Source: Chloroflexota bacterium
Lineage (GTDB): Bacteria; Chloroflexota; Dehalococcoidia; JACPQF01
Direction of reading: 5' to 3'
Assembly (NCBI GenBank): GCA_016190625.1
Contig: JACPQF010000011.1
Coordinates: 1-32,951, forward strand
DNA: 32,951 nt
Below, in pieces: positions 158-12,512 of this stretch. Position numbers and translations under genes: made by a program. The notes under the pieces were generated by a model. That model was not told the origin of the DNA. It did not search any database and saw only the letters and a list, made by a program, of their open reading frames with translations. Every line of letters begins with the position of its first letter. Within the stretch, counting starts at the first letter, position 1.

Positions 158-3100
158 TCACCGCCAGACCATCGGCAAGTACAGCGTCCACCCTCTCGAT
201 CCCCACACCGGCCCGTACCACTCCGACCCGCCCCCCAGTCTCACCGCCTCCAGCCGGTATTGGTAACGCCGCCCCGTCCGAGCAGCTTCATCCACGTACC
301 GATACCGGTTGCCCCACGAGCCTCCCTCCGCCGTGACCCTCCCCTCGTTTAACTTGACCCAATCTCCCCCGTCTCCTTCCGCTCGCCACACGTCGAACCC
401 CGTAACGTTCAGCTCGCTCGCCGTCTCCCACTCCACGGCGATGCCCGAAGAGAGGCCGCGGGCCGCCAGCGAAGAGACCTCTACCCCCGTGGGCGAGCCC
501 TCACCGAGGGCGAAGGGAGAGAAGGTGGTCACACCGGCCAGCTCCACGTACTTGTTGGCGTTCTCGTCCGTCCCCCGAACCGCCGTCCCGCTCACCTGCA
601 TCCAGCCGTCGGTGGTGCCGCAGTGGAAGAGGTTCACGTTGCTCGCCGTGGTCCCGTTCGCCTCGCCGGGGGCGTAGTACAGCCGCAGCGTGCCCGATAC
701 CCCCGAGGTGGCGTTGGGCGTCACCTGGTAGAATCGCTTGACCGGCGTGCCGGCGAAGGCGCTCCCGTTGCAACTGGGCGGCGTCTGGCCGATGGTCACC
801 GTGATGGCCGTGCTCCCCAGGGCGGTGCCGCCGGTGGACGTGAGAGCCACCGTGGGGTAGCCGAGGGGGTCGTTGTAGGCGAGACGTGTATTCGCGGTGG
901 CGTTCTGGGCCGGGGCCTCGCGACGGATGGCGCCGTTGTTGGTGAGCGCGCAGCCATCGGCGATGGCGATGTAGTCGTCGGAGACGTCGAGGACCGTCGT
1001 GGTCCGGCTGATGGTGAGGTTGCAGAAGGTCTCTGTGCTGCCCGTGCCCGATTTGCTCAGAGTTGCCGTTCCCGCTTTGTCGAAGATGACCCTGCCGCTG
1101 GCGGGGGAATAGGTCCCTGCCGTGTTGGTCCAGTCGCCGGAGACCGTGAGGGTATAGCCGTTGGTATTGAGGGTGCCAGTGGTGAGGGACACCGAGCCGG
1201 AGATGGCGACGGTGGCGGAGATGGTGGCCGTCACGTTGGTAGAAAACGACAGGGACTGGGTGTAGGTCCCGCCGTAGATGTAGGCCGTTCCGCCGGTAAG
1301 AAGGCCGCCGAGAGCGAGGGCAAGGGTGGCAAAGCAGGGACTGTTCCCGCCACAGGCTTCGGCAGGGTCGGCGTAGGTGGCGGCGTTTGATATTCTGGCA
1401 ACAAAGGCGTCGGAGTCTGAGGCGTAGGCGCGGACCGGCGATCCCCAGGTGGCATTGCTCAGCCCGGAGACGTAGACGTTGCCGCTGCCATCAACGGCAA
1501 TCCCCTGGCCGTAGTCGGACCCCGTGCCGCCGAGAAAGGTATTCCACTGGAGGTTGCCGCTACTGTCCAGCTTGGCGGCAACGGGGTCGTTGCTCGCGGT
1601 GTAGCTGCGGATAGGAGATCCCCAGGTCGCATAGCTATAGCCGCCCACGTAGGCGTTTCCGCTTACATCCACGTCTATGGCATAGCCAATATCAGACCCC
1701 GACCCGCCGAGGAAGGTGCTCCATTGCACGCTGCCGCTATCAGCCAGCTTGGCGACAAACGCATCGTTGTCCGCCGTATAGCTCCGGATTGGCGATCCCC
1801 AGTTGGCCCCACTGTAGCCGACGACGTAGGCGTTCCCGCTCCCATCCAAGTCGATATCGACGCCGTAATCGTTTGCCGTGCCTCCGAGGAACGCGTTCCA
1901 CTGGAGGACCCCGCTGCTATTCAGTTTGGCGACAAAGGCGTCGTCGCCCGCCGTGTAGGTGCGGACTGGCGAACCCCAACTGGCGGCGCTATAGGCGGCC
2001 ACATAGATATTGATGCTCTCGTCCACGGCAATACCATAGCCATAATCGTTGCCCGAGCCCCCGAGGAACGTGTTCCACTGGAGGGTCCCGCTGCTATCCA
2101 GCTTCGCCGCGAAGGCGTCGGCGTTTGCCGTGTAGTTGCGAACCGGCGATCCCCAGGTGGTCCACCCGCCGCCGACGACATATACGTTCCCGCTCCCGTC
2201 CACGGCGATGCCTTCGCCCTGATCGCTGTCGGAACCGCCCAGGAAGGTATGCCACTGGAGGACACCGCTGCTGTTCAGCTTGGCGACAAAGGCATCCTTG
2301 CTCGCCGTGTAGCTGCGGACTGGCGAGCCCCAGGTGGCCTGACTGTAGCCGATTACGTAAGCGTTGCCACTCCCGTCGACCGTGATCCCATAGCCGATAT
2401 CGCTTCCTAACCCGCCAAGAAAGGTGTTCCATTGCAGGCTGCCGCTGCTATCCAGCTTGGCGACAAAGGCGTCGTTGCTTGCCGTGTAGATGCGAACCGG
2501 CGATCCCCAGGAAGCCGCGGTGTAGCCGACCACGTAGGCGTTCCCGTTCCCGTCCACGGCGATCCCGCCCCCATAATCAGATGCCGAGCTTCCCAAGAAG
2601 GTGTTCCAGGCCAGCTCAGGGTCGACCACCAGAGGATAGCGCCTGTCATACTCGTCCGCCGCGAAGCTCACCTCCCGCTCGCCCAGCAGACGAAAGGCCA
2701 CAGCCACGGGCACGCGCTCTCCCTCGACCTCCTGCCAGGCTACCGGCGCGCTCTCCCGCATCTCGCCGGCGTCGAAGCCAAAGACCAGGCTCCCGTCCTC
2801 TGCCATCTCCACGGGCGCGTTGTACCGCAGGCGGATATCCTCGACCCTCGCCCCCGGGTCCACAAAGTAGGTGCTCTTGGCTATGCCGTCCACCAGCGCC
2901 TCATAGCTCAGGCTGATGCCAGGCCAGAGGCCGGCATAGGTGACCTTGCCCAGAGGCGGAGAACTCGATAGACCGACTCGGTCTCCGAGACCGAGTCGGT
3001 CTGGGGGCGGCGAAGCGGCATCCGCAGTAGGCTGATCAGCCACCGGCGTCACTCCCGCGGTTCCCACGAATTCGACCCTTAAGAGGTGATCGCCGCCGGC

Positions 3101-3307
3101 CATGTAGACGCCGCCGGCCTCAAAGCCGAGAACGTGGCCGCCAGCGGTGAAGGTGAGGAGACTAGACGGTGTGTCGGCAAGGGGAGGGGAATGACCGACG
3201 GCAATGGCTGGCGAGGGGATGGCGAGAAGGTTCGCGACCAGCCCAAAGATTAGGCACAGGCCAGCTATTCCAGACAACGCGCGGATACGAAGCGGGGTGC
3301 TTTTCAT
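158..3307 (-). CDS. Secreted SBBP/beta-propeller repeat protein with N-terminal signal peptide and C-terminal fibronectin-like region
   Basis: 1049-aa ORF; hydrophobic N-terminus; seven ~59-aa repeats (AFVAKLDSSGxLQWNTFLGGxGSDxGxGIAVDGSGNAYVxGYSxATWGSPVRSYTA); C-terminus ends ...LYLPMVWR. Confidence 0.9.
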   Translation of the reverse strand: MKSTPLRIRALSGIAGLCLIFGLVANLLAIPSPAIAVGHSPPLADTPSSLLTFTAGGHVLGFEAGGVYMAGGDHLLRVEFVGTAGVTPVADQPTADAASPPPDRLGLGDRVGLSSSPPLGKVTYAGLWPGISLSYEALVDGIAKSTYFVDPGARVEDIRLRYNAPVEMAEDGSLVFGFDAGEMRESAPVAWQEVEGERVPVAVAFRLLGEREVSFAADEYDRRYPLVVDPELAWNTFLGSSASDYGGGIAVDGNGNAYVVGYTAASWGSPVRIYTASNDAFVAKLDSSGSLQWNTFLGGLGSDIGYGITVDGSGNAYVIGYSQATWGSPVRSYTASKDAFVAKLNSSGVLQWHTFLGGSDSDQGEGIAVDGSGNVYVVGGGWTTWGSPVRNYTANADAFAAKLDSSGTLQWNTFLGGSGNDYGYGIAVDESINIYVAAYSAASWGSPVRTYTAGDDAFVAKLNSSGVLQWNAFLGGTANDYGVDIDLDGSGNAYVVGYSGANWGSPIRSYTADNDAFVAKLADSGSVQWSTFLGGSGSDIGYAIDVDVSGNAYVGGYSYATWGSPIRSYTASNDPVAAKLDSSGNLQWNTFLGGTGSDYGQGIAVDGSGNVYVSGLSNATWGSPVRAYASDSDAFVARISNAATYADPAEACGGNSPCFATLALALGGLLTGGTAYIYGGTYTQSLSFSTNVTATISATVAISGSVSLTTGTLNTNGYTLTVSGDWTNTAGTYSPASGRVIFDKAGTATLSKSGTGSTETFCNLTISRTTTVLDVSDDYIAIADGCALTNNGAIRREAPAQNATANTRLAYNDPLGYPTVALTSTGGTALGSTAITVTIGQTPPSCNGSAFAGTPVKRFYQVTPNATSGVSGTLRLYYAPGEANGTTASNVNLFHCGTTDGWMQVSGTAVRGTDENANKYVELAGVTTFSPFALGEGSPTGVEVSSLAARGLSSGIAVEWETASELNVTGFDVWRAEGDGGDWVKLNEGRVTAEGGSWGNRYRYVDEAARTGRRYQYRLEAVRLGGGSEWYGPVWGSRGWTLYLPMVWR
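1390..2610 (-). repeat. Seven in-frame tandem ~177-bp repeats encoding the SBBP units
   Basis: 'ggcgatccccagg'-type motif recurs about every 177 bp (about 1438, 1615, 1792, 1969, 2146, 2323, 2500); seven WGSP(V/I)R motifs in the translation. Confidence 0.85.
2970..3002. repeat. Perfect 15-bp inverted repeat with 3-nt loop inside a CDS
   Basis: AGACCGACTCGGTCT-CCG-AGACCGAGTCGGTCT. Confidence 0.9.
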
Positions 3308-3483: not shown

Positions 3484-3894
3484 CTAAACCTCAAACGGGT
3501 TGAACAAGCGTACTCCCGTACGGGAGAGGTCAGCAGTGTTTCGGGTGACGAACAGTAGACCATGCACCTTGGCCGTGGCAGCCATGAGGCCGTCCACCAC
3601 TGGCAGCGCGTCGGGAACGTTCATGCGGCCCCATTCCTCTGCGATTTCCAGCGTGACGCTGAGAATCCGGTCGGCGTAGTCGGCCCGCAGCGAGGCCAGC
3701 CAGCTTTCGAAGACGGCAGCCTGCGCTGCATCGCGCCGGCGCAGACGGTCGATGCCCTGCCGGATCTCTCCCAGTGCAAGAACACTCAGGAAAAGATCTA
3801 TGCCGCTGATAGATGATAGCCAGGCTCGCACCCGCGGGTTCCCGTGGGGCTTCCGCGCCTCGGAGATAATGTTCGTGTCGAGGAGATAGCTCAC
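3484..3894 (-). CDS. PIN-domain ribonuclease toxin (VapC-like)
   Basis: Translation from GTG: (M)SYLLDTNIISEARKPHGNPRVRAWL...LPVVDGLMAATAKVHGLLFVTRNTADLSRTGVRLFNPFEV; PIN acidic residues present; the longer 218-aa ORF extends out of context into the antitoxin. Confidence 0.88.
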   Translation of the reverse strand: MSYLLDTNIISEARKPHGNPRVRAWLSSISGIDLFLSVLALGEIRQGIDRLRRRDAAQAAVFESWLASLRADYADRILSVTLEIAEEWGRMNVPDALPVVDGLMAATAKVHGLLFVTRNTADLSRTGVRLFNPFEV

Positions 3895-4133
3895 AGCTCG
3901 ATATCTCGCTGATGGTCGCCCAAGCGCTGGATATCTAGGGAGCTCAGATCCGGCCCAGTCAACAGAAACTCGGTGAAGTCCGGCTTGCCCCCGGTCAGGC
4001 GCCGGTAGTCCCCGGCCGACATGACCACGACCACGGTCTCGCCATGGCGCGTGACCGCTTGCGGTCCCTCTGAAATGGCCTGCTTCACCAATTGGCTGAA
4101 CTTCTGTTTTGCTTCCTGCAACTGCCAGGGCAT
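3891..4133 (-). CDS. Phd/YefM-type antitoxin
   Basis: MPWQLQEAKQKFSQLVKQAISEGPQAVTRHGETVVVVMSAGDYRRL; 4-nt GTGA overlap with the downstream PIN gene. Confidence 0.9.
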   Translation of the reverse strand: MPWQLQEAKQKFSQLVKQAISEGPQAVTRHGETVVVVMSAGDYRRLTGGKPDFTEFLLTGPDLSSLDIQRLGDHQRDIEL

Positions 4134-4233
4134 TCAACACCTCCGTCTAGTCTGACTAGATCATAAACCACACGACGGGTGATGTCAAGGCGTCACGATT
4201 ATTGGCCTGTGAGCCCTAATTCACGTTCCCACT

Positions 4234-4281
4234 GATCATGCAGGCGCGGTCCATCTTGGGAAGGATCGCGCCTGCATGATC
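4234..4281. repeat. 19-bp stem (one G-T wobble), 10-nt loop, intergenic hairpin
   Basis: GATCATGCAGGCGCGGTCC-atcttgggaa-GGATCGCGCCTGCATGATC. Confidence 0.9.
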
Positions 4282-4341
4282 GAGAGGTCCAACCTTTCTC
4301 GATAGATACGATTTGCGGCTGATGGTGTGGCGGCGCCCGCG

Positions 4342-4848
4342 CTAGTCCGGCTTGGACTCGCCCTTCCACGGAGAGCCGTCCTGCCTGGTCTCCGATGCTT
4401 TCCTGTAGTCGCAGACATCGGCGTATCGGGCAAGATCCGGCGGATTGGACGGCTTATCCTGCGCCGCCTTCTTCTCCTCCGGCTTTGGCGCCTCGATCTC
4501 CACGCCGAGCTTGTAATCGAAGGCAGTGGCATACCGCGAAAGTGAAGGTGGGTTGATCGGCTGCTCCTCGGCCGGCTGTTTCTCAGCCAACTCCTCCTCA
4601 TCGTCCTCCGCCGCCTCTTCCGGAACAGATGCCTGTGACGAAGGATCACGCCAGGGCCAATCAGTGCCCTGAATGCGAGTAGCCCAGCCAGTGTAGCTCT
4701 TGCTGAACACCGTGTACGAGTTCGCCAGAATACGGCTGGCCGTTCCCTGGCAGTCAGGACAGGCCGCATCCTCTGTTGCCTGGCTGAACGGTCTCACCAT
4801 CTCGAATACCTTACCACACGACTTGCACCGATAGTCATACCTCGGCAT
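4342..4848 (-). CDS. FmdB-type zinc-ribbon protein with charged C-terminal extension
   Basis: [16 protein letters not shown]...CPDCQG N-terminal CxxC...CxxC zinc ribbon. Confidence 0.85.
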   Translation of the reverse strand: MPRYDYRCKSCGKVFEMVRPFSQATEDAACPDCQGTASRILANSYTVFSKSYTGWATRIQGTDWPWRDPSSQASVPEEAAEDDEEELAEKQPAEEQPINPPSLSRYATAFDYKLGVEIEAPKPEEKKAAQDKPSNPPDLARYADVCDYRKASETRQDGSPWKGESKPD

Positions 4849-7450
4849 CTTCGCTTACCTCCTTCACCAGAAAACTGAAATCTCCGTTTTGATAACCGAC
4901 AAATACGTGGCCTCCCGTCCTCAGTCGCCCTTCGAGGATTTGAAGAGAAAGAGGCTCCAGAATAGCCTGTTGAATCAGCCGCTTGAGCGGTCTCACCCCA
5001 TAGTCGGGGTCGAAACCCTCCTCAGCCAGGGCATCCGCTGCCGCTTGATTTAGATCGATGGACATGCCCTTGTCCGCAAGTCGCTTGTTCGCCTCGGCCA
5101 GTTGCAGCTTGACGATAGCCTTGATGTCCTCCAGATCGAGTGAGCGGAAGATGATGGTGGCGTCCACCCGGTTGAGGAACTCGGGACGGAACTGCTCCCT
5201 GAGCGTCTTCTGCAGCTCGCGTTTGATCTCGTCTTCCGACTGGCCCGCCATATCCTGAAACAGCCGGCTGCCTACGTTGCTCGTCATCACCACTATGGAG
5301 TTCTTGAAATCGACCACCCGGCCATGACCGTCTGTGAGCCGTCCGTCCTCGAGAATCTGGAGTAGGATATTGAATACGTCGGGGTGGGCCTTCTCGATCT
5401 CGTCGAGCAACACGACCGAGTAAGGCCGCCGCCTCACCGGCTCGGACAACTGCCCGGCCTCGTCAAAGCCGACGTAGCCTGGCGGCGCACCGATAAGGCG
5501 AGAAACGGCGTGCTTTTCCATGTATTCGCTCATGTCGAGCCGAACCATGGCGCGCTCGTCGTCAAACAGGAACTCGGCCAGGGCGCGAGCCAACTCCGTC
5601 TTGCCTACTCCCGTCGGGCCGAGGAAGACGAAGCCGCCTATCGGTTTGGTCGGCTCGTTCAGGCCAGCCCTGGCCAGGCGTATCGCCCTCGACACCGCAC
5701 CGATCGCCTCGTCCTGCCCCACCACCCGGCGGCGGAGACGGCCCTCCATGTGGACGTACTTCTCGGCCTCACCTTCCAACATGCGGGCAACCGGAATGCC
5801 CGTCCAACTGCTGACGACCTTGGCCACGTCCTCCTCGTCCACTTCCTCTTTGAGCATCTTGCTAGCCTTCTGCAGCTCGTCGAGGTTATGCTCTTCCCCT
5901 TTAAGCTGGCGCTCCACGTCTGCCAGCGCCCCGAAGCGAATATTGGCGACTTTGGCGGCGTCCTGAGCTCGCTCGGCCATCTCGGCCATAAACCGCTGCC
6001 AGTCGATCTGCTGGCGGAAATTGCGGATGCGGTCGATGGCCGCTTTCTCCTTGAGCCAACGCTCCTTGGTGCGGTCTCTCGCCTCTCTCAGCTCGCCTAG
6101 TTCTTGCTCCAGCTTGCCCAGACGATCTCGCGAGAGATTCTCCTTCTCCTTGCTCAAACCCGCTTTTTCTACTTCCAACTGCACGATTCGACGCTCCAGC
6201 TCGTCCAACTGGGTCGGCATGCTCTCTATCTCTACTCTCAGCCTCGCGGCCGCCTCGTCGATGAGGTCGATGGCTTTGTCGGGGAGATAGCGGCTGGAGA
6301 TATAGCGCTTGGATAGCGTCGCCGCCGCCACGAGGGCGGAATCCCTGATGCTAACGCCGTGATGTATCTCATAGCGCTCCTTTAGTCCCCGAAGGATGCT
6401 AACCGCTTCGTCCACCAAGGGCTCGCCCACCATCACGGGCTGAAATCGTCGCTCCAGCGCCCCATCCTTCTCCACGTGCTTGCGATACTCCTCCAGGGTG
6501 GTGGCGCCGATGCAGCGGAGCTCGCCCCTGGCGAGCATGGGTTTCAACATATTGCTGGCGTCGATCGACCCTTCGGCGGATCCTGCCCCAACCACCGTGT
6601 GGAGCTCGTCGATGAACAGAATGATCTCGCCCTCTGCCTGTTGCACCTCTTTCAGGACCCCTTTGAACCTCTCCTCGAAATCGCCCCGATACTTGGTGCC
6701 GGCAACCAGCGACGGCATGTCGAGGGCGACAATTCGTTTCTGCTTGAGGCTTTCGGGCACGTCTCCCCTGACGATCCGCTGGGCGAGGCCCTCGGCAATC
6801 GCCGTTTTGCCCACGCCCGGATCGCCGATGAGCACGGGATTGTTCTTCGTTCGGCGGGACAGCACCTGGACTACCCGTCGTATCTCCTCATCCCGGCCAA
6901 TGACGGGGTCGAGCTTTCCCCGGCGGGCCAGCCCGGTCAGATAGCGTCCATACTTCTGGAGGTTCAGGTACTTGCCCTCGTAGGTCTGATCAACCACCCG
7001 CGTGCTACCCCGCACCGCAGTTAGGGCCGTGCTGATTCGGTCCTTGGTGATCCCCGCCTCCGAGAGGATCTTGGATGCCTGGCCGTCGACGTTGTCGTTG
7101 GCCATGGCCAGCAGCAAATGCTCGGTGCTCACGTACTCGTCGGTGAGCGCATGAGCCTCGCGCAAGGCCAGGTCGAGAACCTTGTTCAGCCGATCCGATA
7201 TCAAGACTCGCTTCGGACCAGGCTCATAGTTTCTCGGCATCTGATGGAGAGCGGTCTGAACCTTCTGGCGGACGGGGGTCGTGTCGACGCCCATCTGCTG
7301 GAACACCTGGGGCGCGATACCCTCCTCGAGGTCGAAAAGGGCGAAGAGGAGATGCTCGACATCGAGCTCGCTATGACTATAGTCGTCAGCGACCTGTTGG
7401 GCGACCACAACCGCTTCCTGAGCCTTCTCGGTGAGTTTCTGCCAGTTCAC
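4835..7450 (-). CDS. clpB: ATP-dependent chaperone ClpB
   Basis: 871 aa; Clp N domain, two Walker A motifs ([25 protein letters not shown]), middle coiled coil, [11 protein letters not shown] and [10 protein letters not shown] sensor motifs. Confidence 0.97.
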
Positions 7451-7623
7451 TGGAATTCACCCCTTATCTCGATAACCGCTTGTGCGCTGTGGACAGGTGA
7501 AGTATAACACGCCAGCGGATGCCTAGGCAAATATACCACATCTGTGAAGATTAGTTAAGTAGATCTGAGCTTGGTGCCATCTGCGCCGGAAGCCCGATGA
7601 GCTCGTCGCAAGTTGATGCTCTA

Positions 7624-7666
7624 TTAATTCTCCTCTAATCTTGCTCTAATGACGGCGGTGTAATCT
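7624..7666 (+). promoter_or_regulatory. Putative response-regulator box A (11-bp direct repeats) plus -10-like element
   Basis: TTAAT (7624), CTAAT (7635), CTAAT (7646); TAATCT at 7661. Confidence 0.6.
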
Positions 7667-7751
7667 TGAGGAAACGACACTGAGCAAGGTCTGTCTTGAG
7701 ACGCCAGACGGCCCAATGTTTACGAGGTGTCCTCTCAGAGGAAGGGTCTTG

Positions 7752-8291
7752 ATGTCGACTATCAGAATGGCTTCGGCTATGGGATTGATAATGCTGCTCA
7801 CGCTAGTAGTTAGCTGCGCCGATCCTCCCACCAGTCCGCCCCCCGAGCCGGCGGTTAGACAAGGCATCAACTCTGTGCCCGCAGCCGCGCCAACTGTGGC
7901 TTTGGCCAATCCTCAGTCCGTTACGCCAGCCAAACAGGTGGATCCCGCCTCAACCAAGGGCCCCCGGCTGACTATCAACGCCGAGGCGGTTGATTTCGGC
8001 GAGATACCCTACTCGCAGGCCATTGCCCTGAGCTTCACCATCAAGAACGTGGGAGCGGCGCCGGTGTCCCTCGGCCCGGCCTTCATCCGCGTGAAAGAAG
8101 GCTGCTGACCGCCGAATGTCGTCGTGGGTGCCACGACCCTGAGTCCCGAACAAACCACCTTCGCTAGATTGGCCTTTGCCATGCACGAGGGAATGGGGGG
8201 AGCGCATCTTTTTGAGGTAGTGTTTCCTTCCAACGACCCCTTCGAGCCGGAGAAGGTAGTCTCGATTCGTGCCATCTGGCCCCTGCCCTGA
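7752..8291 (+). CDS. Putative selenocysteine-containing DUF1573-like lipoprotein (in-frame TGA at 8106-8108 read as Sec)
   Basis: MSTIRMASAMGLIMLLTLVVSCADPP lipoprotein signal; LTINAEAVDFGEIPYSQAIALSFTIKNVGAAPVSLGPAFIRVKEGC-[TGA]-PPNVVVGATTLSPEQTTFARLAFAMHEGMGGAHLFEVVFPSNDPFEPEKVVSIRAIWPLP-stop; the frame stays open for 60 codons past the TGA; SECIS-like hairpin follows. Confidence 0.75.
8121..8137 (+). other. Putative bacterial SECIS element (upper stem-loop)
   Basis: GTCGTGG-GTG-CCACGAC: perfect 7-bp stem; GGT starts 18 nt after the TGA codon. Confidence 0.65.
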
Positions 8292-8303: not shown

Positions 8304-8357
8304 CTCATCTTCCTTTAATCTTGGCTCCATGTGGCATTCATTTTCGCCGGCTATAAT
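8304..8357 (+). promoter_or_regulatory. Putative response-regulator box B (degenerate 11-bp repeats) plus TATAAT
   Basis: CTCAT (8304), TTAAT (8315), TCCAT (8326), TTCAT (8337); TATAAT at 8352. Confidence 0.5.
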
Positions 8358-8393: not shown

Positions 8394-9617
8394 TTGCAGA
8401 AAAATATCCTACCCCTCTCCATCTTGCTTCTCCTCGGCGGTTTGTTATGGCCCTCAGCGACTTTGTACGCCGACTCGCCGTCCTATCAACGCGCCACCAT
8501 CTTCTACAGCAGCGGCTGCACCATGTGCTCCGATTTCATAGACTCGGACCTCATGGGCGTGCTTCGGGCCGCCAACGTGAAGGAAGTGGTGAAGAGAGAG
8601 TATTTGAACGATGTGGCGAATCGCAAGGAACTTCAGGATTTGAACCAGCGGCTGGGAATACCACCAGATCTGCAGGGCCATATCACCACGATAATCGACG
8701 ACAGGATCGTTCTCGAAGGGCATGTGCCCAAGGGCATCATGACAGACGTTATCTTTAACACCGAGGGAGACCTGTTTCCCCGCCTAGCCGTGTATCAGGA
8801 CGACATGCACGGCGTCGCCACCACCTATCGCATCTGGGCCTGGCAGGGTGATATTCTGGAATACTCTCTGGGCACGCCGGTGAGCGCGTATTTCGGTCAG
8901 CTCAGGTCGGGCTCGCCGGGGACAGGCCGAAGCGTGAAGACCGGTTCTGGCCTGCTATTGCCGGTAGTTATCGGCGCCGGGCTGTTGGATGGCATCAATC
9001 CCTGCGCCTTCGCCGTCATGGCTTTTCTGGTCGCCTTTCTCTTCACCCTGAGGCGGACCAGGTCAAACATCCTTCAACTCGGATCAGCCTACATCCTCGC
9101 AATGTACGTTACCTACTTCCTCATTGGCCTCGGACTGCTCAAAGTGCTCGTCCTCGCCGGCTATCCTCACATCATTTCTCGCCTTGGCGCTGCCGCGGTC
9201 GTCGTTCTTGGCCTCGTCAACCTTAAGGATTATCTCCTTCCGAATCTACCTATCAAGCTTTCCATGCCCAAGGTGGGCTGGGAAACCACCAAGGGATGGA
9301 TCTCGCGGGCTACGCTGCCTTCCACCTTGATTGCCGGCGCCCTAGTGGGATTGTGCACGCTGCCCTGTTCGGGGGGCATCTATGCGGCCATCCTTGGTCT
9401 ACTGACCGCGCAGACGACCTTCATCGGGGGCCTCGGGTATCTGGCCATCTACAACCTGATGTACGTGGCGCCGCTGATCCTGATTCTTCTGGCCATCACC
9501 ACTCGACCGGTGGCCCGGAATTTGGCGATTTGGGAGAGGGCTCACAGCCGGCAAACCAAGCTCCTGTCTGGAATTATCATGCTCTTGCTCGGCGTACTCA
9601 TACTTTGGATAATATAG
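8394..9617 (+). CDS. Glutaredoxin/thioredoxin-like domain fused to CcdA/DsbD-type membrane domain
   Basis: TTG start; signal peptide; ATIFYSSGCTMCSDF (CxxC); then GAGLLDGINPCAFAVMAFLVAFLF... and ALVGLCTLPCSGGIYAAILGLL, typical CcdA cysteine-containing TM segments. Confidence 0.9.
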   Translation: MQKNILPLSILLLLGGLLWPSATLYADSPSYQRATIFYSSGCTMCSDFIDSDLMGVLRAANVKEVVKREYLNDVANRKELQDLNQRLGIPPDLQGHITTIIDDRIVLEGHVPKGIMTDVIFNTEGDLFPRLAVYQDDMHGVATTYRIWAWQGDILEYSLGTPVSAYFGQLRSGSPGTGRSVKTGSGLLLPVVIGAGLLDGINPCAFAVMAFLVAFLFTLRRTRSNILQLGSAYILAMYVTYFLIGLGLLKVLVLAGYPHIISRLGAAAVVVLGLVNLKDYLLPNLPIKLSMPKVGWETTKGWISRATLPSTLIAGALVGLCTLPCSGGIYAAILGLLTAQTTFIGGLGYLAIYNLMYVAPLILILLAITTRPVARNLAIWERAHSRQTKLLSGIIMLLLGVLILWII

Positions 9618-9800: not shown

Positions 9801-10469
9801 ATGCAGCTCTTGGTTGTCGACGACGATCCTCAGATCCTGAGCCTTCTCAGGCGGGGCCTCTCTCTTGAAGGCTACAGCGTCGACCTGGCCGAGGACGGTG
9901 CGAAAGCTCTCGCCATGCTTAGAGACAAGGCGTACGACCTTGTCGTCCTGGACGTAATGCTGCCGGGTGTGGATGGCGTGGAGATCTGTCGCCGACTTCG
10001 GGCTGGCAGCGAGGTCCCCGTGCTCATGCTGACAGCGCGGGCGTCGGTCCAAGACCGGGTGGTGGGACTGGACAGTGGGGCGGACGATTATCTGGTCAAA
10101 CCTTTCTCTCTCGACGAGCTCCTGGCTAGAGTGCGGGCTCTGCTGCGAAGGCATCAGCCTTCGGCCCACACCCTCTTGCAGTTTGGCGACCTCAAGCTGG
10201 ACCCGGCCACTCGCGAAGTGTGGCGCGGGGATGAGCAAGTCCAGTTGACCGCCAAGGAGTTCGAGCTGTTGGAGCTATTCATCCGACACCCCCGCCAGGT
10301 GCTCAGCCGGGAGACCATCTATGACCGGGTTTGGGGATACGATTTCGGTGGCGAGTCCAACATCATCGAGGTGTACATCCGCTATCTCCGAACCAAGCTG
10401 GAGCCACCGGGAAAGAGCAAACTCATCCAGACTGTTCGCGGCGTCGGCTATGCCCTGCGGGAGCGGTAG
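9801..10469 (+). CDS. OmpR/PhoB-family response regulator
   Basis: [20 protein letters not shown]...[11 protein letters not shown]...LTARA...[10 protein letters not shown] receiver plus winged-helix DNA-binding domain. Confidence 0.95.
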
Positions 10470-10473
10470 TTCC

Positions 10474-11868
10474 TTGTCACTCCGTCTGCGTCTAAGCCTG
10501 TCATATGCGGGCTTGCTGGGGATCGTGCTCGTCGTCTTCAGCGTTGTGCTCTATCTGACAATGGCCAAGATCTTACTAGACGAAGTCGACAGCCGCCTGC
10601 GTCTCGCCGCCTCCCAGGTACACATGTCGGTCGGCGCTGCCGACGAAAGGCATGACCTGAGGATCCTCGCCGATACTGTGTTGGGTGCACCGCTGACGAG
10701 CGAGCTCGCTGCACCGGGACTAACCGTCCAGGTGCTCGACGAGCGGGGCAGGCTCGTCGCCTCGTCTCCCAACTTGAAAAACGAGCAACTTCCCGTCGAC
10801 CCGGCGCTAGTCGATGGTGGCCTGCGTGGCGAACAGAGCGTGGCGACTCTTGCGGCGTTGGCGAAAGAGCGCGTTCGGGTCCTCACCATGCCGCTAACGG
10901 TCAACGCCAAGGTATTGGGCATCGTACAGGTGGGGCAATCCCTCCACGATACCGACATCGCCGTCGCCCGGCTTCGTCTTCTGTTGATCGCCGGCAGCCT
11001 GGCGACGATCGTCGCTGCCGGCATAGTCGGCTGGTTTCTGGCCCGAAGAGGGCTCAAGCCCATCGGCGACATCGCCGACGCCGCCCGGGAAATCGGCGAG
11101 ACCGCCGATTTCGGCCGCCGGATCGACGTGCAACTGCCGGGTGATGAGGTCGGCAGGTTGGCTACCACCTTCAACGACATGATCGAGCGAATCGAGGAAT
11201 CCTTCGAGTCACAGAAAAGGTTCGTGGCCGATTCCTCCCACGAGCTCCGCACGCCGCTGACGGTCATTCGGGGCAACGTGGACTTGCTAAAGCGGCCGCT
11301 GGGCAACGAGGACCGGCGCGAATGTCTCTCCGCCATCGAAAGTGAGGCGGAACGCATGAGCAATATCGTAGCCGAGCTGTTGCTCCTAGCCCGGCTGGAC
11401 TCGGCGCAGGAGTTCGATAGACAACCTGTTGAACTCGACACCCTTCTTCTCGAAGTTTACAGACAAGCGAAGGTCATGGCGCAAGGTAGACGCCTGCTGC
11501 TCGGCCACGAGGACTGCGCCGTCGTTACCGGCGACCCCGGCCGGCTGAGGCAAGTCCTCTACAACCTGGTGGACAACGCCACAAAGTACAGCGGCGAAGA
11601 AGCCACTATTACCCTCTCCCTTCATAGGTTGGACGGCTGGGTCCGGGTCGACGTCGCAGACACGGGCGTTGGCATCGCCGCCGAGGATCTGCCGCACATT
11701 TTCGACCGGTTCTACCGGGTGGACAAGGCCCGGTCGCGCGCCACCGGCGGCACCGGCCTCGGCCTCACCGTAGTCAAGCAGATCGCCGAAGCCCACGGGG
11801 GCAAGGTGACTGTTTCCAGCGCTCTCGGCAAGGGCAGCACTTTTTCCGTATGGCTGCCGCTGACCTAA
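10474..11868 (+). CDS. HAMP-containing sensor histidine kinase
   Basis: TTG start at 10474 right after the RR stop; two TM segments, HAMP, HisKA (FVADSSHELRTPLTVIRGN), HATPase (NLVDNATKYS, DTGVGI, GTGLGLTVVKQIAEAHGG). Confidence 0.93.
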   Translation: MSLRLRLSLSYAGLLGIVLVVFSVVLYLTMAKILLDEVDSRLRLAASQVHMSVGAADERHDLRILADTVLGAPLTSELAAPGLTVQVLDERGRLVASSPNLKNEQLPVDPALVDGGLRGEQSVATLAALAKERVRVLTMPLTVNAKVLGIVQVGQSLHDTDIAVARLRLLLIAGSLATIVAAGIVGWFLARRGLKPIGDIADAAREIGETADFGRRIDVQLPGDEVGRLATTFNDMIERIEESFESQKRFVADSSHELRTPLTVIRGNVDLLKRPLGNEDRRECLSAIESEAERMSNIVAELLLLARLDSAQEFDRQPVELDTLLLEVYRQAKVMAQGRRLLLGHEDCAVVTGDPGRLRQVLYNLVDNATKYSGEEATITLSLHRLDGWVRVDVADTGVGIAAEDLPHIFDRFYRVDKARSRATGGTGLGLTVVKQIAEAHGGKVTVSSALGKGSTFSVWLPLT

Positions 11869-11918
11869 TCTTCTCCTAATCTACCTCTAAGCATCGCCTA
11901 ACGACCATGTGGCATGCT
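11865..11918 (+). promoter_or_regulatory. Putative response-regulator box C (four 11-bp-phased repeats)
   Basis: CTAAT (11865), CTAAT (11876), CTAAG (11887), CTAAC (11898); weak -10-like CATGCT at 11913. Confidence 0.6.
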
Positions 11919-12017: not shown

Positions 12018-12512
12018 GTGCTTAGAAAAGCGGCAGGGCCATTCACAGATTCTCGGCTCAAGGGTCTGCCCCGACGAAGGCACCTTCTCACCGGCCTGGC
12101 GACAATACTGATTGTTGCCGCGTTCTCCTCTGCGCTGCTGCAGTGGCGGGCAGGAAGAGCGACGGATAGTCCTTATGGAGCGGCGCCAGCGGTGAGGCCG
12201 GGAGGAGTCAAAACACAGGAGAGGCCCTATCTGGGAATAACCTATGTCCCCATCACCACCCAATTGGCTACCAGCCATGGCCTGGCCGCCGATTCCGGAA
12301 TCTTGATCACCGCGGTGGCGGCGGCAAGCCCGGCCCAAAAGGCGGGCATTCAGCCCGCCGACATAATGACCGAGTTTGCCGGCCAGCGGCTGACCGAGAA
12401 CACAACCATCCTCGAGATCCTCAACCAGCACGCCGCCGGCCACGCTGTGATGGTCTGCGTTCTCCGGAAGGGAGAACAACGTCAGGTGGAGGTCACCCTC
12501 GGCGTGCAATAG
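12018..12512 (+). CDS. Membrane-anchored PDZ-domain protein (HtrA-like PDZ without protease domain)
   Basis: GTG start; one TM segment; RPYLGITYVPITTQLA...GILITAVAAASPAQKAGIQPADIMTEFAGQRL. Confidence 0.85.
   Translation: MLRKAAGPFTDSRLKGLPRRRHLLTGLATILIVAAFSSALLQWRAGRATDSPYGAAPAVRPGGVKTQERPYLGITYVPITTQLATSHGLAADSGILITAVAAASPAQKAGIQPADIMTEFAGQRLTENTTILEILNQHAAGHAVMVCVLRKGEQRQVEVTLGVQ

Follow-up and report, generated by a model that had tools for sequence, protein, structure and literature searches.

The stretch of DNA analysed here (the window) comprises 32,951 nucleotides of contig JACPQF010000011.1 (assembly GCA_016190625.1), from a Chloroflexota bacterium of the class Dehalococcoidia, and its features are collected in Table 1. 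At the locus of interest a forward-strand frame runs for 118 codons to an in-frame TGA directly after ...FIRVKEGC, continues for 60 further codons (PPNVVVGATT...AIWPLP) and closes at a second TGA (8289-8291). A mechanically derived open reading frame of 130 amino acids opens at an upstream ATG (7716); from the ATG at 7752, the start we prefer, the truncated form would have 118 residues and the readthrough product 179, with selenocysteine (Sec) as residue 119. Gene calling with translation table 11 ends these genes at the TGA. Most of what a sequence-only reading had claimed for the gene thus held, namely the 130-residue frame stopping at the first TGA (with the change of start just given), the 60 open codons up to a second TGA, the product of about 179 residues with a vicinal Cys-Sec pair (Cys118-Sec119), and the truncation of the gene by standard annotation. 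Its further claim of an exported lipoprotein fits a lipobox read by eye, and the export and lipid anchoring of the product are inferred from sequence alone. Scanning the window for Rfam families and for tRNAs gave no match.

Table 1. Features of the selenoprotein locus and its neighbours in the window
Feature	Position	Strand	Basis and remarks
Direct repeats TAATCTTGCTC, 5' of the selenoprotein gene	7624..7668	+	Two of the copies 11 bp apart, operator-like
Shine-Dalgarno-like AGAGGAAGG	7736..7744	+	Purine-rich, just 5' of ATG 7752; sequence, by eye
Selenoprotein gene (very likely), about 179 aa with Sec119	7752..8291	+	Frame, homologues, fold; DUF1573-type domain in the C-terminal two thirds
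Putative lipoprotein signal peptide	7752..7817	+	Lipobox LVVS-C22; sequence, by eye
UGA codon, very likely for selenocysteine 119, adjoining Cys118	8106..8108	+	90/98 distinct homologous contexts TGA, 8/98 Cys
bSECIS hairpin	8121..8137	+	6-bp stem, 8121-8126 with 8132-8137; loop 8127-8131, G-U at 8128-8129
M144-H-E-G-M148-G-G-A-H152 motif	8181..8207	+	M, M and H invariant in 40 diverse sequences; candidate metal ligands with Cys118 and Sec119, no binding data
TAATCTTGCTC-type repeat, 5' of the CcdA-like gene	8304..8319	+	
CcdA/DsbD-like membrane protein	8394..9617	+	Thioredoxin-like N-terminus (SGCTMC); next gene after the selenoprotein; candidate reductant of Cys-Sec
OmpR-family response regulator	9801..10469	+	Best match heavy-metal cztR/silR/copR subfamily, 248 bits, below the cut-off of 279
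Sensor histidine kinase	10321..11868	+	Second-best match heavy-metal cztS/silS/copS subfamily, 255 bits, below the cut-off of 292.55
TAATCTTGCTC-type repeat, 5' of the PDZ gene	11865..11891	+	Two copies 11 bp apart
Membrane-anchored PDZ protein	12018..12512	+	Possibly same regulon; 39% homologue close to the selenoprotein gene at L078 and L026

The CcdA/DsbD-like protein has no Pfam match of its own, with a homologue matching DsbD_TM weakly, and a 43% identical homologue occurs in genome G242 among DsbA, CcmH-DUF1573 and DUF1573 genes, not far from FTR1. There, genes for a DsbA-like protein, a DUF1573-CcmH-DUF1573 fusion, a CcdA/thioredoxin fusion and DUF1573 proteins are clustered (L143, positions 3838-7583; G242:C98), a grouping that might serve as a thiol-redox route for cytochrome or metal-site assembly. 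The two-component system of the window is nearest to the CopRS/SilRS heavy-metal subfamilies, yet falls under their cut-offs, and the true start of its histidine kinase probably lies near 10462. The three genes preceded by repeats flank this system, and TAATCTTNCTC repeats match four times in the window against 0.48 expected. In our judgement they are likely to be the operator of the OmpR-type system, and their presence before the selenoprotein, CcdA-like and PDZ genes suggests a single regulon.

To see how the TGA behaves across relatives we searched 60 genomes from its class and, more widely, 399 from the phylum; the majority of strong homologues carried exactly one in-frame TGA. A scan of GTDB genomes yielded 80 named loci, with TGA at the column in 74 and a Cys codon (TGC or TGT) in 6; for the contig scan a tighter alignment was used, the first being too diverse. 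Pooled as distinct contexts (n = 98), the column holds 90 TGA, 8 Cys and no other residue, a recurrence of TGA that is well beyond chance. Most homologues belong to Chloroflexota, and the rest come from Methylomirabilota, Rokubacteria, Gemmatimonadota and Desulfobacterales metagenome-assembled genomes (MAGs); a scan of viral contigs found no relative. The tree requires three changes between Sec and Cys, each imposed by branches with good support. Past the TGA and the hairpin described below, 702 pairs (many of them between relatives) gave a median dN/dS of 0.054, showing that the sequence 3' of the TGA is under purifying selection. One tandem two-domain DUF1573 protein (L005/L015; G027:C46) reads EQGCAT in its first domain and EQGC-U-PP in its second.

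The simplest objection is that the TGA represents a sequencing error, or a recent nonsense codon in a decaying Cys gene. In its favour, gene callers would stop here and Cys homologues do exist. However, the 90 distinct contexts come from unrelated assemblies, and a sequencing error is ruled out because the same TGA is shared by such assemblies, including the single-contig genomes G064, G166 and G381, and by the cultured Thermanaerothrix daxensis GNS-1 (L130). Together with a dN/dS of 0.05 beyond the TGA and the hairpin covariation and codon-shuffle results given next, this leaves the error or pseudogene explanation practically no room.

In this gene family the UGA is followed by a 12-nt spacer, a 6-bp stem (+13 to +18 paired with +24 to +29) and a loop of the form NGUNN, which in the window reads GUCGUG-GGUGC-CACGAC. 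The loop G-U at +20/+21 is present in 88 of the 90 distinct Sec contexts, the same position as in E. coli fdhF (UGA-CACGGCCCAUCGGUUGCAG-GU). In an alignment of 29 sequences all six pairs showed compensatory double changes and 99.4% of cells paired, with a stem covariation of 0.486, where shuffles gave 0.188 and slid partners no more than 0.142. Since the hairpin lies inside coding sequence, the control that matters is the shuffling of synonymous codons within each gene, and here 5.97 of 6 pairs were observed against 4.84 +/- 0.11 in shuffles, the full stem in 97% against 18%, and the loop G-U in 94% against 18.5%, with the Cys homologues at their own null. This comparative evidence shows that the hairpin is a SECIS element that codon usage does not explain. 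By single-sequence folding energy the hairpin was not unusual (z = -0.39). Near the in-frame TGA of selD, by eye, there is a hairpin-capable stretch without the loop G-U, which makes that gene unusable as an internal control. Three of the 8 Cys homologues (L062, L067 and in part L075) retain the stem wholly or mostly, and their genomes, despite the Cys form, still possess tRNA-Sec; we infer that in these the hairpin is a remnant of recent Sec loss. In the mechanism we propose, SelB would bind the bSECIS 12 nt past the UGA and direct Sec insertion. With a SECIS so unusually uniform, the family lends itself to a clean test of Sec recoding in bacteria other than Proteobacteria.

The source assembly (3.18 Mb in 160 contigs, 65% complete) was found to contain selA (563 bits), selB (327 bits, above cut-off), selD (410 bits, with an in-frame TGA of its own) and a tRNA-Sec, or selC (69.8 bits), whose anticodon loop CTTCAAA reads TCA (anticodon UCA). 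A second objection, that TGA has generally been reassigned to an ordinary amino acid in the source organism, would account for one in-frame TGA, but all non-TGA homologues carry Cys, the selenoprotein gene itself and other genes of the window terminate at TGA, and the full Sec machinery is present, so that reassignment is excluded as firmly as error. Across genomes reached through the loci, a clear tRNA-Sec was found in 14 of 18 with the Sec form versus 4 of 8 with the Cys form, a trend in the right direction that falls short of significance (p = 0.2), partly owing to incomplete MAGs. The 4 Sec-form genomes lacking a clear tRNA-Sec are probably themselves incomplete or misbinned MAGs. A contig titled Pseudomonadota (L086; JAKQEE010000346.1) carries a selenoprotein that matches those of Anaerolineales, in a genome without a clear tRNA-Sec, and is likely misbinned.

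On this comparative evidence, and in the absence of protein data, we consider it very likely that TGA 8106-8108 is a selenocysteine codon and not a stop. The machinery, the TGA/Cys column and the SECIS all support the putative selenoprotein with a Cys-Sec motif that had been proposed from the window. That proposal had aligned the TGA with the second Cys of a CC pair, which held, and had named among the findings that would refute it a genome lacking selA, selB, selC and selD, and homologues without Cys at the column. These two were looked for; all four genes are in the assembly, and the homologues have nothing other than Cys or TGA at this position.

With regard to domain identity, the window protein scores 18.3 bits to Pfam DUF1573 (PF07610), under the gathering cut-off of 26.1, whereas the close relatives L004 and L006 reach 41.6 and 43.7 bits. 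AlphaFold2 modelled the readthrough domain as an all-beta Ig-like sandwich (pLDDT 96.8, pTM 0.87), and Foldseek matched it to the ASH domains of HYDIN, CEP192 and OCRL and to P. gingivalis 2qsv (TM 0.76, rmsd 2.2). In a 40-sequence alignment the invariant positions are G-C-C/U-P together with M76, M80, G82, H84 and F86 in domain numbering, corresponding to Met144, Met148, Gly150, His152 and Phe154 of the 179-residue product. From strand order we tentatively infer that one end of the sandwich may bear both the GCUPP loop (49-54) and the M-H-E-G-M loop (75-81). Canonical DUF1573 proteins with T-S-C-G-C-T (the G242 cluster; solved relative 2qsv) share this fold and a conserved G-C in the same loop, but have C-G-C in place of G-C-U/C, no Met/Met/His motif and no Sec.

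A DUF1573 selenoprotein, OS_HP2 (pfam07610), has already been published, with its motif given as UxC (PMC2398784) or UGC (PMC9312934, PMC13188914), and a referee might ask whether the present gene is simply a member of it. Both have a DUF1573 Ig-like domain with one Sec in the same loop beside a conserved G-C, and the OS_HP2 model (NCBIfam NF041425) matches relatives of the window gene weakly. However, that match (33 bits) is far under the curated cut-off of 100, and the window gene is not matched at all. In OS_HP2 the Sec stands two residues before the Cys (U-G-C), whereas here it directly follows it (G-C-U); upon alignment with L135 the Sec of OS_HP2 lines up with the Glu, and OS_HP2 has a gap where the new Sec stands, with the two Sec columns three residues apart. 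OS_HP2 also lacks the Met/Met/His motif, M-x3-M-x3-H being specific to the present family. Moreover, the Desulfobacterales genome G437 holds both kinds, an OS_HP2 protein (L135, 132 bits) reading RTD-U-G-C-T and a G-C-U protein (L134/L136) reading EGC-U-SP. Membership in OS_HP2 is therefore very unlikely.

PMC13188914 (2026) treats a shared domain whose Sec lies elsewhere as a distinct subfamily, and its list of 119 families and subfamilies has no G-C-U DUF1573 entry. By comparison with the literature (deposited protein annotation lay outside our search), the present family is a new selenoprotein subfamily: the domain was known to bear Sec, and the site at which it does so here is new. The sequence-only reading had described a new, DUF1573-like selenoprotein whose part downstream of the TGA forms the second half of one beta-sandwich domain. 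The sandwich fits the model; the domain assignment held in part, as the window protein is under the Pfam cut-off while close relatives are above it and the fold is Ig-like; and the novelty also held in part, DUF1573 selenoproteins being known and only the Sec position and subfamily being new. The subfamily is widespread and well supported, and adds to a phylum on whose selenoproteins we found scant work in the literature searched.

To shed light on possible roles we surveyed the genes around family members in loci with flanks. Common neighbours encode the PCYCGC protein, a CopA-like ATPase, a 4Fe-4S polyferredoxin, FTR1, HMA, multicopper oxidases and a fusion of a COX2/CuA-type cupredoxin with cytochrome c (C-x3-C-x3-H-x2-M); rhodanese, TlpA-like and DsbA-like neighbours occur in some relatives. 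Of 26 nonredundant loci (identity under 68%), 17 have a gene from one or more of five groups, namely cupredoxin, PCYCGC, polyferredoxin, CopA and multicopper oxidase. This is a hand count of the union that had no background control, and the neighbour counts lean on related Anaerolineales. PCYCGC was found in 10 of 12 member genomes versus 5 of 48 others (p = 2e-6, uncorrected for kinship), its gene being several times on the same contig as a family member and often a selenoprotein itself (OS_HP4 type, UxxC). This PCYCGC/OS_HP4 CYCXC family (PF13798, NF041379) resembles ours as an envelope protein of unknown function that is often a selenoprotein and is encoded alongside, but it is unrelated in sequence, and hence a candidate partner and not a relative. 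PCYCGC proteins beside the family, several with an in-frame TGA, include L145 5459-6136 and 838-1332 (G036) and L137-L142; one contig of G036 carries both a Sec PCYCGC gene and a Cys DUF1573 gene. The window's own neighbourhood contains neither a cupredoxin nor a copper ATPase, and a search of its assembly (65% complete) did not find PCYCGC.

Taken as one joint reading, a selenoprotein whose Cys-Sec pair has a redox role, a metal role or both is likely, because C, U/C, M, M and H are invariant, because copper and electron-transfer genes are neighbours and PCYCGC co-occurs, and because the window gene has a CcdA/thioredoxin neighbour and a CopRS-like two-component system with shared upstream repeats. 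More specifically, Cys118-Sec119, Met144, Met148 and His152 may together make up a single redox-active soft-metal site, with Cu(I) as its most likely metal. The protein would then bind copper, or reduce a thiol or metal centre, as envelope copper or cytochrome electron-transfer proteins assemble; in the window the adjacent CcdA/thioredoxin membrane protein would keep the Cys-Sec pair reduced.

The main rival holds that the pair is a plain thiol/selenol oxidoreductase without a metal site, whose substrates would be disulfides, peroxides or oxidised envelope proteins and whose electrons would come from CcdA/thioredoxin, the Met and His residues serving the fold or substrate binding. This is consistent with the CcdA/thioredoxin neighbour, with the DsbA, CcmH and DUF1573 genes that surround its G242 homologue, with the rhodanese, TlpA-like and DsbA-like neighbours of some relatives, and with redox enzymes making up the majority of selenoproteins (PMC13188914). 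Against it, Met, Met and His equal the Cys-Sec pair in invariance and are missing from the OS_HP2 type, and the relatives' neighbours are chiefly copper and cytochrome genes. We regard the metal-free enzyme as a serious contender that trails slightly, and prefer copper, in the knowledge that Cu(I) binding is inferred and that the choice could readily fall either way.

Sco and PCuAC chaperones are exported, membrane-linked proteins whose Cys, His and Met ligands build the CuA site. Their likeness to the copper reading is confined to the proposed way of working; no sequence match was found, and no copper binding has been shown for the present family. Although speculative, it is possible to go further and picture a selenolate-copper site in a protein that depends on Sec and serves the CuA-type cupredoxin/cytochrome proteins of Chloroflexota as a copper chaperone or reductase, in many cases together with the PCYCGC selenoprotein. 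The copper context makes testable the idea of bacterial selenocysteine in copper handling, and T. daxensis GNS-1, as a cultured carrier, puts such a test within reach.

Elsewhere in the window, the minus strand at 158-3307 encodes a 1049-residue secreted protein composed of repeated 'LQWNTFLGGSGSDYGYGIAVDGSGNAYVVGYS' units, which by eye appears beta-propeller-like.
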